Below, piece after piece: positions 31,309-35,420 of a stretch of DNA of 64,000 nt (position 1 is its first letter; each line of letters starts with the position of its first letter). The notes below the pieces were generated by a model. The model did not search any database. It worked only from the letters and a program-made list of their open reading frames with translations, and was not told the DNA's origin. The stretch comes from Dongia rigui. Its GTDB lineage: Bacteria > Pseudomonadota > Alphaproteobacteria > Dongiales > Dongiaceae. Position numbers and translations under genes: made by a program. The DNA lies in the NCBI RefSeq assembly GCF_034044635.1, contig NZ_JAXCLX010000001.1:1116001-1180000 (forward strand), in the 5' to 3' direction.

Positions 31309-33339
31309 TTAGATCGCCTTCGTCGCCTCGTTTAGCCAAGCGAGATCGCTGCCCGAAAGCTGTGGCGCCAAGGCCGCGCGGACGCGGGCGTGGTAGGCGT
31401 TGAGCCAAGCGGTTTCTTCCGCGGTGAGGAGCTTCTTCTCGATCGCGTTCAAATCGATCGGCGCCAGGGTCAGGGTTTCGAATTCCAGCCAGTCCGGATT
31501 ACCCGTCACTTCCCGCACGACGACGAGGTTCTCGATGCGGATGCCGAATTCGCCTTCCTTGTAATAGCCGGGCTCGTTCGAGATGATCATGCCGGGTTCG
31601 AGGGCGACGCGGTTGGGCACTTTCGATATGCGCTGCGGCCCTTCATGCACCGAGAGATAGGAGCCCACACCATGGCCGGTGCCATGGTCGTAATCGAGAC
31701 CCACATCCCAGAGCGGCTTCCTGGCCAGGGCATCGAGCGCCGAGCCGGTGGTGCCTTTGGGGAAACGCGCGGTGCCCAGGGCGATATGGCCCTTCAGCAC
31801 GCGGGTGAAGCATTCCTTCATCTCCTGCGTCGGCGTGCCGATGGCGATGGTCCGCGTGATGTCGGTGGTGCCGTCGAGATATTGCCCACCGGAATCGATC
31901 AGGTAGAGGGAGTTGACCGGAATCTCGCGCTGGGTTTCCGGCATCGCTTTGTAATGGCAGATGGCGCCGTTGGGGCCGGCTGCTGAAATGCTGTCGAAGG
32001 AAAGATTGCGGAAATAGTCGTTGCCGTGGCGGAAGGCCGCCAGCTGGTCCGAGGCTTCGATCTCCTTCAACCCGCCCTTGGGCGCACGCTCGGCGATCCA
32101 GGCGAGATAGCGGGCGACCGACGCACCGTCGCGGGTATGGGCGTTGCGGGAGCCCTGCACCTCGACCTCGTTCTTGGCCGCCTTGGGCAAGGCGCAGACG
32201 CATTCGCCGACATGCACGCGGGCGCCGGACTTGGCCAGATTGTCGTAAACCCATTCCGAGGTGGTCGCGGCATCGATGGCGATGACCGATTTGCTGGCGC
32301 CCAGTGCCTGCAGGCCAGCCTCGAAGGCATCAGGGGCCGCTACCGCGACCTCGTTGCCAAGATGGGTCAGCGCCTGGGGCGTCAGCTTGCGGCGGTCCAT
32401 ATAGAGATCGACGCGGGCATCGTCATGGAGCACGGCGAAGCCCAGCGCAAAGGGTGTGCGCGGCACGTCGGCGCCGCGGATGTTGAGCAGCCAGCAGAGG
32501 GAATCCGGGCCCGAGATGATGGCAGCGGCCTTCCCCTCGGCCTTCAGCTTGGCGGAAAGAGCGCGGCGCTTCTCGGCCGAGCCCTCGCCGGCGAATTTCA
32601 TGTCATGCGGCAGGACGGGGGAAATGGGATCGGCGGGACGGCCGGCCCAGATCTCGTCCACCGGGTTCTTCGTGACGGCGACCAGCTCCGCCCCGGCGCG
32701 CTTGGCCGCGGCGCGGAAGCGGCCGGCCTGGTCGGGTGTGAAGAGCCTGGGGTCGAAGCCGATCTTCTGCCCCGGCTTCAACTCGGTGGCGATATAGAGG
32801 TCGGCCGGCTCCGTCACCAGATGACGATATATATAGAGAGCGGGGTCGACCTGGTCCTTCACCTGGATGGTGTAGCGCCCGTCGACGAAGATCGCGGCCT
32901 TGTCGGCGAGGACAACCGCCATGCCGGCCGACCCGGTGAAGTTGGAGATATAAGCCAGGCGCTCGGCATTCTTGGGAACATATTCCCCTTGGTGGTCGTC
33001 GGCGCGGCCGATGATGAAGCCGTCGAGGCCTTGGCGCTTCAGCGCCTCGCGGAGAAGGGTGAGGCGCGCGGCGATCGGCTGGCTCTGCGTCTGGGCAAAG
33101 CGGCTTTCTTTCTCACGCCGGAAAGCCTGCAGCTGGGCGACCAAGGCAGGGCTCGGATTGTCCGCCACCAGGTCCATCCAGGAATCCGGCCGCTCACCCG
33201 CCGGCGCCGCGGCGATCCCCGGCAATAGGTCGGCAAGGGCGTTAACACTTAAATGCGCCTGATGCTTTTTGAGCAATCCGCTAAGTGCTTCATCCCCTTG
33301 ATAGGTCTCTCGGCACGCTGAATCCGGGGAAGTTACCAT
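31309..33339 (-). CDS. pepP: Aminopeptidase P (Xaa-Pro aminopeptidase, M24B)
   Basis: A 676-residue metallopeptidase of the large three-domain APP type: two creatinase-like N-terminal domains and a catalytic pita-bread domain. The metal ligands are in place: LIDSGGQYLDGTTDITRT (two Asp), DYDHGTGHGVGSYLSVHEGP (His), ISNEPGYYKEGEFGIRIENL (Glu, Glu). It removes the N-terminal residue before Pro in cytosolic peptides. Start is taken as the ATG at 33339, seven bases after GGAG; the next likely in-frame ATG (33177) would shorten the N-terminus to a more usual length. Divergent from the DUF1127 gene. Confidence 0.88.
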   Translation of the reverse strand: MVTSPDSACRETYQGDEALSGLLKKHQAHLSVNALADLLPGIAAAPAGERPDSWMDLVADNPSPALVAQLQAFRREKESRFAQTQSQPIAARLTLLREALKRQGLDGFIIGRADDHQGEYVPKNAERLAYISNFTGSAGMAVVLADKAAIFVDGRYTIQVKDQVDPALYIYRHLVTEPADLYIATELKPGQKIGFDPRLFTPDQAGRFRAAAKRAGAELVAVTKNPVDEIWAGRPADPISPVLPHDMKFAGEGSAEKRRALSAKLKAEGKAAAIISGPDSLCWLLNIRGADVPRTPFALGFAVLHDDARVDLYMDRRKLTPQALTHLGNEVAVAAPDAFEAGLQALGASKSVIAIDAATTSEWVYDNLAKSGARVHVGECVCALPKAAKNEVEVQGSRNAHTRDGASVARYLAWIAERAPKGGLKEIEASDQLAAFRHGNDYFRNLSFDSISAAGPNGAICHYKAMPETQREIPVNSLYLIDSGGQYLDGTTDITRTIAIGTPTQEMKECFTRVLKGHIALGTARFPKGTTGSALDALARKPLWDVGLDYDHGTGHGVGSYLSVHEGPQRISKVPNRVALEPGMIISNEPGYYKEGEFGIRIENLVVVREVTGNPDWLEFETLTLAPIDLNAIEKKLLTAEETAWLNAYHARVRAALAPQLSGSDLAWLNEATKAI

Positions 33340-33367
33340 CTCAATCTCCAAATTAACCATAAACTGT

Positions 33368-33405: not shown

Positions 33406-33421
33406 AGTGATATGCATCACA
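33406..33421. promoter_or_regulatory. CRP-like binding site
   Basis: AGTGA-N6-TCACA differs by one base from the CRP consensus TGTGA-N6-TCACA. It lies in the 240-bp gap between the divergent pepP and triple-DUF1127 genes, 159 bp upstream of the latter. A Crp/Fnr-family regulator is encoded at 9877-10665. Confidence 0.45.
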
Positions 33422-33579
33422 CTGCCATCTTGACCGTTTTGCATGCGCCGCGTGCATTGCTGCGATGCGGCGAAACCACTACTAAACGGGTGGGGTAAAG
33501 ATTATGTTCTGCCTGTCCGCACAACAGAAGCGATGGCAACGGTGCCATCTGAACTTGAAAGCCGGATTGGAAGGTTACT

Positions 33580-34236
33580 ATGAATCGGATCGTGATCAAT
33601 CAGAACGTGGCGTCGAGCCAGGCCCTGTCGGCCTCCGCCACCAAGGAAATCGGCCTCGCTGCCTTTGCGCGTTTTGGCCGTGCCATCTCCAGCGCCGTGC
33701 GCCGCACCTATGCGCGCATCCAGCTGGAAAACGAACTTTACGCCCTCGACGATCGTTCGCTGAACGACATCGGTGTGGGCCGTGGCTCCATCCCGGCGCT
33801 GGCCCGCGAGGCCTTGCCGGCCGGTGACGAGAGCCTCTTCGCGGAATTCAGCCGCCTCGTCGTCAACGGTGTTCTCCGTCCGGCGATCGACTGGAACCGT
33901 CGCCGCAAGGCCCGTGCGACCCTCGAAGCCCTCGATGACCGGTTGCTGGCCGATATCGGCCTCGCCCGTTTCGAGATCGAGGCCCATGTGGCCCGTCTCT
34001 CCGGTGCCATCAACGGCGCGCTCCCCGCGACCGTCCAGGCGATGGAAGAAGACGTGACCGCGCCCCTCAAGGCTTGGTCTGCGGCCCGTGCCACCGCGAA
34101 GGAATTGTCGCGCCTCACCGATCGCCAGCTGATGGATATCGGTGTCATCCGCGGCGATATCGACGAGTTGGCCGGCAACCTCGCCGAGCGTGGCCTTGCT
34201 GCCAACAGCAACGCCCTCGCCCCGAAGGCCGCGTAA
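33580..34236 (+). CDS. Protein with three DUF1127 (YjiS-like) motifs
   Basis: A 218-residue protein carrying three copies of the DUF1127 core, which is normally found once in small proteins of 50-100 residues. The copies are at about 50-71 (ELYALDDRSLNDIGVGRGSI), 114-133 (LEALDDRLLADIGLARFEI) and 174-194 (ELSRLTDRQLMDIGVIRGDI), spaced about 61-63 residues, each after a basic helix (RRTYARIQ, NRRRKARA, AARATAKE). Single-copy DUF1127 proteins have been linked to RNA binding and phosphate or RNA turnover. The start at 33580 has GGAAGG at six bases. No signal peptide or membrane segment was seen. The tandem layout suggests internal duplication. Confidence 0.78.
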   Translation: MNRIVINQNVASSQALSASATKEIGLAAFARFGRAISSAVRRTYARIQLENELYALDDRSLNDIGVGRGSIPALAREALPAGDESLFAEFSRLVVNGVLRPAIDWNRRRKARATLEALDDRLLADIGLARFEIEAHVARLSGAINGALPATVQAMEEDVTAPLKAWSAARATAKELSRLTDRQLMDIGVIRGDIDELAGNLAERGLAANSNALAPKAA

Positions 34237-34332
34237 AAGTTCGACACTCGAGTTTCCCCTAAGTAGTGCGCCGAAACGGCGGTCCGGGTCCCTCCCGGGC
34301 CGCCGTTTCAGTTTGTGCGGCTTTAGCCAAAG

Positions 34333-34437: not shown

Positions 34438-35322
34438 TTAGCGCCGCGCCTTTTTCTTCAGCACCAGGACCGACCAGTCGTTCTGGCGGATGCGGAAATC
34501 GAGCTCGAGGCCCACGGCGTGATGCGCCGCCAGCACGTCCTTTTCCTGTGTCTTCAGCAGGCCGGAAAGAATGGCGCGGCCATTGCGCCCGAGGCTCTTG
34601 GCCAGATCAGGCGCCAGTGAAATGAGCGGATTGGCCAGGATGTTCGCCGTGATGAGGTCGTAAGGGCCATTGTCGCGGATCGCCTTCGCCCGGTAGCCGT
34701 CCGAGGCAACAATGCGAATGTGCTTCTTGAGGCCGTTAATGGCGGCGTTCTCACGTGCCACGCGCACCGCGTCCTTGTCGTTGTCGCCGGCCATGACCGG
34801 AATATCGAACAGGTGATGGGCAGCGAAGGCCAGGATGCCGGTGCCGGTGCCGATATCGAGTGCCTTCTTCACTTTCAGCGTCTTCGAGAGCTTCAGCAAC
34901 GCCTTGACGCAGCCGCTGGTCGTTTCGTGCCGGCCGGTGCCAAACGCCATGCCGGCGTCGATCTCGAGCGGGATGACGTTCCTCGGCGCCTTGCCGCGGT
35001 CATGTTCGCCATGAATGAAGAACGGCCCCATCTTGATCGGCGCCAGGCCCTTGCGGCTCTCGGCCAGCCAATCCTTGTCCGGGACCAGGCCGATGACGGC
35101 TTTCAAATTGCCGAAGGGTTTGAGGACGGATTTCACGGCCGCAGCCGACGGCTTCTCCTCGCCGATCACTTCCATATGCCAGCCCTTGCCGCCATCGGTC
35201 TCGAAACTGACCAGGGCCGCCCCGAAGGGTTCCAGGGCTTCTTCCAGCGCCAGGCGCCAGGCGGTTTCCGGCTTGAAGTCGAAATCGACCGTCACCGCAT
35301 AGAGTTTCACTTTGGCTTGCAT
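34438..35322 (-). CDS. prmA: Ribosomal protein L11 methyltransferase
   Basis: A 294-residue SAM-dependent methyltransferase. The N-terminal domain binds L11; the catalytic domain has the SAM motif ALDIGTGTGILAFAAHHLF, preceded by the family signature DAGMAFGTGRHETTSGC, and NILANPLISLAPDLAK (N-x-L-x-x-P) for the methyl-acceptor site. It trimethylates ribosomal protein L11. The start is the ATG at 35322; the frame continues upstream through a REP element and is not expected to be translated there. A CCCTC-type repeat follows the stop directly. Confidence 0.92.
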   Translation of the reverse strand: MQAKVKLYAVTVDFDFKPETAWRLALEEALEPFGAALVSFETDGGKGWHMEVIGEEKPSAAAVKSVLKPFGNLKAVIGLVPDKDWLAESRKGLAPIKMGPFFIHGEHDRGKAPRNVIPLEIDAGMAFGTGRHETTSGCVKALLKLSKTLKVKKALDIGTGTGILAFAAHHLFDIPVMAGDNDKDAVRVARENAAINGLKKHIRIVASDGYRAKAIRDNGPYDLITANILANPLISLAPDLAKSLGRNGRAILSGLLKTQEKDVLAAHHAVGLELDFRIRQNDWSVLVLKKKARR

Positions 35323-35344
35323 GTAGGCCCCCAAAAATAGGTTC

Positions 35345-35420
35345 GTCATGCCCGGGCCTGACCCGGGCATCCACTCTCACCACGGCACCAGTGGATCCCC
35401 GGGTCAAGCCCGGGGATGAC
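35345..35420. repeat. REP-like repeat
   Basis: GTCATGCCCGGGCCTGACCC and GGGCATCCACT form the left half; AGTGGATCCCCGGGTCAAGC and CCGGGGATGAC form the right half. It lies 23 bp upstream of the prmA start and 13 bp from the end of the helicase gene. Confidence 0.78.

Follow-up and report, generated by a model that had tools for sequence, protein, structure and literature searches.

A gene of Dongia rigui encodes a real, selected and lineage-specific three-module member of the DUF1127 family of small proteins, and the reading that we favour, at a probability of roughly 0.5, is that its product may act as a regulatory adaptor that is activated by LsrB, multivalent and possibly short-lived. The gene lies in the window, by which is meant the whole stretch of 64,000 nucleotides that was analysed (NCBI RefSeq assembly GCF_034044635.1, contig NZ_JAXCLX010000001.1, positions 1,116,001 to 1,180,000 of the forward strand). 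DUF1127 proteins are widespread and have been linked to the metabolism of phosphate, carbon and RNA, with RNA binding versus protein binding being debated (PMC12501420; this and all other PMC articles are cited from excerpts). A natural three-module form, together with an apparently old syntenic class that has a probable common regulator and a tag-like tail, would allow DUF1127 binding and control to be framed as specific tests, and would extend LsrB control of DUF1127 genes outside the Rhizobiales.

Three DUF1127 cores in one selected protein

The open reading frame at 33580-34236 (+) has an ATG start and encodes 218 residues, and a ribosome-binding site, GGAAGG, is located at 33569-33574 (+), 5 nt before the ATG; the coordinates, the length and a ribosome-binding site had been given in a sequence-only reading of this DNA. 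The whole protein matches Pfam DUF1127 (PF06568) with 84.9 bits (E 3.1e-24), over the gathering cut-off of 23.3 bits, and at a loose setting three stretches of it are matched, two of them individually at E ≤ 0.001. When the thirds of the protein were scored singly they gave 21.7, 36.8 and 40.4 bits, so that cores 2 and 3 pass and core 1 just fails. Whole-genome searching gave similar scores, with 22.6 bits for core 1 (33691-33786, +), slightly below the cut-off, 37 bits for core 2 (33889-33981, +) and 40.7 bits for core 3 (34066-34164, +). Among the Pfam matches listed, the orthologues of at least seven relatives (G008, G009 and G012-G016) have three places above the cut-off, and core 1 is therefore taken to be real. 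Profile searches thus find more than one true DUF1127 core, in agreement with the three cores per protein that had been claimed, and the core starts are spaced by about 62 and then about 61 residues (61-62 overall, using the core model described below), close to the claimed 61-63. No match to the protein was found in NCBIfam.

Nucleotide changes relative to five close relatives fall mostly at third codon positions (35, 19 and 84 changes at the first, second and third positions, respectively, relative to G003), indicating that the reading frame and its protein are under selection. The sequence-only reading had also placed a basic helix before each core. This describes core 2 best, which follows the most basic helix (RRRKAR), and describes cores 1 and 3 less well, as the helices before these are weakly basic in the Dongia rigui genome; averaged over 15 orthologues, the first 14 residues of the 34-residue core segments have a net charge of 1.7 for core 1, 3.3 for core 2 and 2.5 for core 3.

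The three-core form is confined to Dongiaceae among the loci examined

An orthologue was present in 16 of 17 Dongiaceae genomes, the remaining genome (G011) having weak, short matches alone. Three cores are recognisable in 15 of the 16 orthologues and two plus a decayed third in G007, using a core model that was built from 15 Dongiaceae orthologues; since the promoter box matrix used below was also derived from Dongiaceae, the fit of both within this family is by construction. In an alignment of the 16 orthologues, which share 36-97% identity with the window protein, the invariant or nearly invariant positions include many residues of the cores as well as P101, W166, the C-terminal A-N-x-N and the final A. 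Five named loci were obtained, of which three belong to Dongia and the closest (97% identity) comes from a proteobacterial metagenome assembly; Dongia mobilis CGMCC 1.7660 also has an orthologue.

A search for multi-copy DUF1127 homologues had been suggested by the sequence-only reading. No three-core protein outside Dongiaceae was seen among the loci examined from a class-wide search of 387 genomes with the alignment of the 16 orthologues (from the matches listed, with up to 30 loci kept). Genomes with two-core proteins number at least 10 and come from four other families (G017; G056, G165, G245, G312 and G373; G097, G192 and G270; G158). The literature searched yielded no report of a tandem, two-copy or three-copy DUF1127 form. 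In a tree of the cores, based on 34 columns and with many forks unresolved, 13 of 15 first cores, 14 of 15 second cores and 14 of 15 third cores cluster by position, with a few cores of G008, G010 and G014 falling outside their own position group, and cores 2 and 3 resemble each other more than either resembles core 1. As the cores mostly group by position, the three-core form is probably older than the Dongiaceae split, and was likely present already in the family ancestor. A second two-core DUF1127 protein, in a 208-aa frame, is encoded elsewhere in G010 (L051, G010:C1:2045432-2045857), without the promoter box described below.

The triple gene belongs to a pepP-linked class of DUF1127 genes

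The divergent neighbour of the triple gene is an aminopeptidase P-type gene, here called pepP (31309-33360, -), identified by Pfam M24 and creatinase N-terminal domains and by synteny. On the other side lies prmA, encoding ribosomal protein L11 methyltransferase (34438-35370, -; PF06325, 189.7 bits), followed by uvrD/pcrA (-). The order pepP, DUF1127, prmA is kept in all seven other Dongiaceae stretches that were fetched, with uvrD next in five, and it also surrounds the two-core genes of G017, G097, G312 and G165; the two-core gene of G158 adjoins pepP.

Outside Dongiaceae, 325 genomes have a PepP match (331 in all, 6 of them Dongiaceae), and the stretch upstream of pepP was surveyed in 100 of the 325, which were hand-picked from the best-scoring matches listed and are not a random sample. 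A divergent DUF1127 gene was found beside pepP in 43 of these 100 alphaproteobacterial genomes, having one core by the core model in 40 and two cores in 3, and prmA was inside the fetched stretch at 38 of the 43 loci. Two-core genes are undercounted here, because five listed genomes with a known two-core gene (G017, G097, G165, G312 and G373) were left out of the survey. Among the remaining 57 pepP intervals, three contain a decayed DUF1127-like ORF, as judged by eye. The triple gene therefore shares with pepP-linked DUF1127 genes elsewhere its place beside pepP, and with part of them a promoter box (score of at least 14 in 24 of 43) and an [AS]N.N tail (22 of 43), both described below, and differs from them in having three cores, so far a property of Dongiaceae only. 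It appears, from synteny and sequence, to be the Dongiaceae form of an older alphaproteobacterial class of pepP-linked DUF1127 genes that mostly stand before prmA.

Two DUF1127 ORFs lie near each other in the pepP interval in five surveyed genomes (G255, G272, G321, G078 and G362), and such pairs are a plausible source of fused cores. They would also fit a rather unlikely alternative, that the extra cores are a neutral or dosage expansion by fused tandem copies of which one module suffices, as would an additional single-core ORF beside the triple gene in G005 and the retention of the gene in G007 after decay of its third core. Against such an expansion, three cores are kept in 15 of 16 Dongiaceae orthologues across 36-97% identity, albeit by a model built from these same cores, and Pfam alone lists three above the cut-off in seven of them. 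The extra single-core ORF of G005 is located between the triple gene and pepP (L162, G005:C1:36870-37109) and has a box-like site of its own.

A conserved promoter box matches the LsrB/VtlR motif

Alignment of the DNA upstream of the triple gene in 16 Dongiaceae revealed one strongly conserved block, with the consensus GCATTRCYGCRATGCRGC, which is present in all 16 promoters and corresponds in the window to GCATTGCTGCGATGCGGCG at 33454-33472 (+). The pattern GCAT-N3-TG-N3-T, published as the LsrB/VtlR motif (PMC7486931, PMC8844928), is matched exactly within the block in the window (33454-33466) and in 14 of the 16 Dongiaceae promoters. A -10-like hexamer, TATGTT (33503-33508, +), begins 49 nt after the start of the box, which places the box at about -61 to -49; this spacing of +49 is found in 12 of 16 Dongiaceae and is 1 nt off in two, with no match to the hexamer pattern in the other two. 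A strict scan for sigma-70 hexamers recognised no promoter here and no -35 element. The motif is reported at -61 to -49 in the Sinorhizobium meliloti promoter PabcR1 (PMC8844928), and positive control of three Brucella DUF1127 genes by VtlR, with the motif CAATGCAGCCATGCA, has been reported (PMC12595884).

With a matrix made from the Dongiaceae boxes and a threshold of 14, a site was detected in 24 of 43 promoters of pepP-linked DUF1127 genes, 19 scoring lower, and in 3 of the 57 pepP promoters for which no DUF1127 gene had been detected; the corresponding numbers of promoters were 25 and 4 at a threshold of 12, and 20 and 3 at a threshold of 16. The three unlinked promoters scoring at least 14 are those with the decayed DUF1127-like ORFs identified by eye. 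In a further set of 33 loci (37 named, less one without a core and three repeats), the best box match lies 450-60 nt before the first core in 21, where about 4 are expected from the lengths; the genomes overlap with those of the survey of 100 that gave the 43 linked genes, and the two results are thus not independent. The strict box was present at none of the 28 single-core DUF1127 ORFs of Dongiaceae that were tested. The two-core genes of one family (f41, five loci) have no good box at the expected place, although the five genomes have an LsrB homologue.

Some other sites were noted. A weaker look-alike, CATTTTYTGCAATGCACCA, is found about 610-622 nt before the first core of the two-core genes in three f41 genomes (L032, L115 and L117). 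A near match to the box, with one mismatch, before another DUF1127 gene of the genome (C3:707485) lies about 40 nt before the ATG, too close for the geometry, and was not counted. Box-like palindromes also precede a gene for a 2Fe-2S protein that resembles, by eye, the small subunit of carbon monoxide dehydrogenase (L079, G000:C1:478879).

A candidate regulator is encoded next to trxB

The Dongia rigui genome has one trxB above the family cut-off, and directly after it a gene encoding a LysR-type protein of 300 aa (L174:2554-3453; G000:C1:912680-913579). The best match of this protein among solved structures is 9HH1 (E 1e-100, the next match having 2.3e-39), which was deposited as Agrobacterium LsrB (PMC11975290). 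An LsrB homologue was found in 37 of the 40 genomes asked, with trxB adjacent at 29 of the 30 loci given. There was no LsrB match at E ≤ 1e-70 in G007, G016 (68% complete) and G097, though the genes there have the box. LsrB is described as unique to Rhizobiales in one excerpted source (PMC11975290) and as present in many Alphaproteobacteria in another (PMC7486931).

Motif, spacing and presence of the regulator together suggest that a LysR-family activator resembling LsrB/VtlR, whose gene adjoins trxB, would bind the box at about -61 to -49 and switch the gene on, and LsrB-type activation through the box is considered probable. Such control would resemble the LsrB/VtlR regulon (abcR1, the Brucella DUF1127 genes and Agrobacterium targets) in the GCAT-N3-TG-N3-T box and its apparent position at about -61 to -49, in a DUF1127 target and in a regulator beside trxB. 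Unlike that regulon, Dongia is outside the Rhizobiales, the target is multi-core, the control is a prediction, and the LsrB homologue contains no cysteine, which means that it cannot share the cysteine-based redox sensing of Agrobacterium LsrB.

The palindrome in the promoter was at first read as a PhaR site, placing the gene in the polyhydroxybutyrate (phasin) regulon. Its core, TGCRNYGCR, resembles reported PhaR sites (PMC12542648), the genome has genes for both PhaR and a phasin, and two or three sites of the TGCRNYGCR type occur in 18 of 26 Dongiaceae phasin upstream regions (taken from the first ATG of each frame; seven have no PhaR-type site). A matrix trained on the phasin regions ranks the window site third in the 64 kb, and the site before the triple gene outscores every position of the window in 11 of 16 Dongiaceae and all positions but one in a further genome. 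However, GCAT-N3-TG-N3-T and CAWTRCYGC are found in none of the 26 phasin upstream regions, compared to 15 of 16 and 16 of 16 triple-gene upstream regions, respectively, and the arms and spacing of the element fit the LsrB box. PhaR control was demoted on account of the absence of the motif from the phasin regions, and is now regarded as improbable relative to activation by the LsrB homologue. A Dongia rigui phasin locus is L134 (G000:C1:1182522-1182809); other phasin loci are L135-L150.

The sequence-only reading had instead pointed to a CRP-like site in the upstream region. A CRP/FNR-like palindrome, GTGATATGCATCAC, is indeed present at 33407-33420, separated by about 33 nt from the LsrB-type box downstream, and recurs, differing at one or two positions, in the seven genomes of the genus, as judged by eye. 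It is absent in the other nine Dongiaceae that have the gene, and the LsrB/VtlR-type box is the better conserved of the two. CRP control of the triple gene is thus weakly supported, and was rejected because the palindrome is conserved in the genus alone.

The protein ends in an ssrA-like tail

The C-terminal tail of the protein, AANSNALAPKAA (34198-34233, +), resembles the tmRNA (ssrA) tag of the same genome, which ARAGORN gives as ANDNVASDLRMAA. Of the 16 tmRNA loci, 9 were analysed in this way and eight yielded a tag, the seven further Dongiaceae tags starting with ANDN and ending with AA. The motif [AS]N.N within the last 22 residues, combined with a final A, was counted in all 16 Dongiaceae, in 19 of 43 pepP-linked relatives and in 1 of 812 control ORFs, the controls being long non-overlapping ORFs rather than annotated genes. 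[AS]N.N alone was found in 22 of the 43 linked relatives (21 are without it) versus 4 of the 812 controls, and shuffling of the last 22 residues of the 43 linked proteins gave a mean of 1.5 occurrences, with a maximum of 5 in 200 shuffles, compared to the 22 observed. The tail motif was present in none of the 28 single-core DUF1127 ORFs of Dongiaceae.

In the ssrA tag, the first part is recognised by SspB and the end by ClpX. The conserved A-N-x-N...A end might act like an ssrA tag that is built into the protein and recognised by SspB and ClpXP, giving a short-lived protein or one whose level follows the protease load, and a role of the tail as a gene-encoded degron is proposed tentatively, at somewhat less than even odds. 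The tail is like the tag in its A-N-x-N start and AA end; unlike the tag, it is encoded by the gene rather than added by tmRNA, and in the triple protein it ends in PKAA, not MAA. Across the orthologues the tails end in PKAA, PRAA, PHAA, PRVA or RQAA, and the tmRNA tags in LAA or MAA, for which reason ClpX may read the tail badly. The A-N-x-N part is conserved in all 16 Dongiaceae, and the last three residues resemble the tag less, which would suit a mimic of the tag that sequesters SspB or a different adaptor, so that the protein competes with tmRNA-tagged substrates and is not itself degraded by way of the tail; SspB binding is itself putative, and we consider a mimic of this kind a good deal less probable than a degron. 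None of the literature listed on ClpXP, ssrA, degrons and SspB mentions DUF1127.

A wider and more speculative proposal, to which we give somewhat less credence than to the degron, is that pepP-linked DUF1127 proteins throughout the Alphaproteobacteria are driven by an LsrB-type regulator and carry a gene-encoded ssrA-like end, through which their level reports on, or competes for, SspB/ClpXP capacity, and that such a protein became a three-module adaptor in Dongiaceae. If this were true, DUF1127 genes would be an old core target of LsrB far beyond the Rhizobiales, and a family of regulatory proteins would have a built-in mimic of the tmRNA tag.

The three modules may bind several ligands at once

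Single-core DUF1127 proteins, such as CcaF1, the short and long Agrobacterium proteins and YjiS, have 47-102 aa (PMC12501420, PMC11707872), and share with the triple protein the DUF1127 core and a preceding helix with arginines; unlike these, the Dongia protein has three cores in 218 aa. It would form a chain of three helical modules, in each of which a long helix is followed by a short one over DDR.L.DIG and then by a third. An AlphaFold2 model based on six close sequences, a prediction that had been suggested for the three modules, shows three repeats of long helix, short helix and helix, the long helix of repeat 2 being split in two. The model is poor (mean pLDDT 51, pTM 0.28), with pLDDT of 70-75 around cores 1 and 3 and of 42-46 around core 2, and owing to these low values the helix pattern alone was taken from it.

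The modules could bind the same kind of ligand as the single DUF1127 proteins, whether RNA or a regulatory protein, for instance a sensor kinase, with several ligands bound at once or with higher avidity, and we hold such multivalent binding to be about as probable as its opposite. Binding of RNA or protein by the modules, with bridging of several targets, is possible, as the sequence-only reading had envisaged; the sequences point to no particular partner. Published DUF1127 proteins differ in what they bind. RNA is bound by CcaF1 of Rhodobacter (PMC12501420), whereas the short DUF1127 proteins of Agrobacterium bind the sensor kinase PhoR (PMC12501420, PMC11707872).

A narrower alternative, that the three modules make up a CcaF1-like RNA-binding protein which bridges or chaperones several RNAs, draws on the example of CcaF1 and on the RRRKAR of core 2. 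It is set back by the number of arginines per 34-residue core (5.2, 5.4 and 4.5), which is not raised over the 5.4 of linked single cores, by the weakly basic helices before cores 1 and 3, and by YjiS, for which the excerpted report found no RNA binding (PMC11707872). An RNA-only function is therefore rated as doubtful, below binding of either kind of ligand by several modules.

Elements flanking the gene

An upstream ORF at 33443-33583, which overlaps the start of the triple gene at ATGA, was considered as a leader peptide because an upstream ORF that includes an attenuation element has been reported for a DUF1127 gene of Sinorhizobium (PMC12218461). It was rejected, as it is interrupted by stops in four of five close relatives (G002, G003, G004 and G006) and is intact in G001. 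Rfam gave no match in the window at gathering scores. Downstream of the gene, an inverted repeat, AAACGGCGG...CCGCCGTTT (34274-34308), seen in the sequence and absent from the output of the terminator scan, is a possible terminator. The 3′ region of the window at 34237-34310, comprising CCCTAAGTAGTGCGCCG and this GC-rich inverted repeat, is very similar in close Dongia genomes, and may represent a terminator or a 3′ UTR element.
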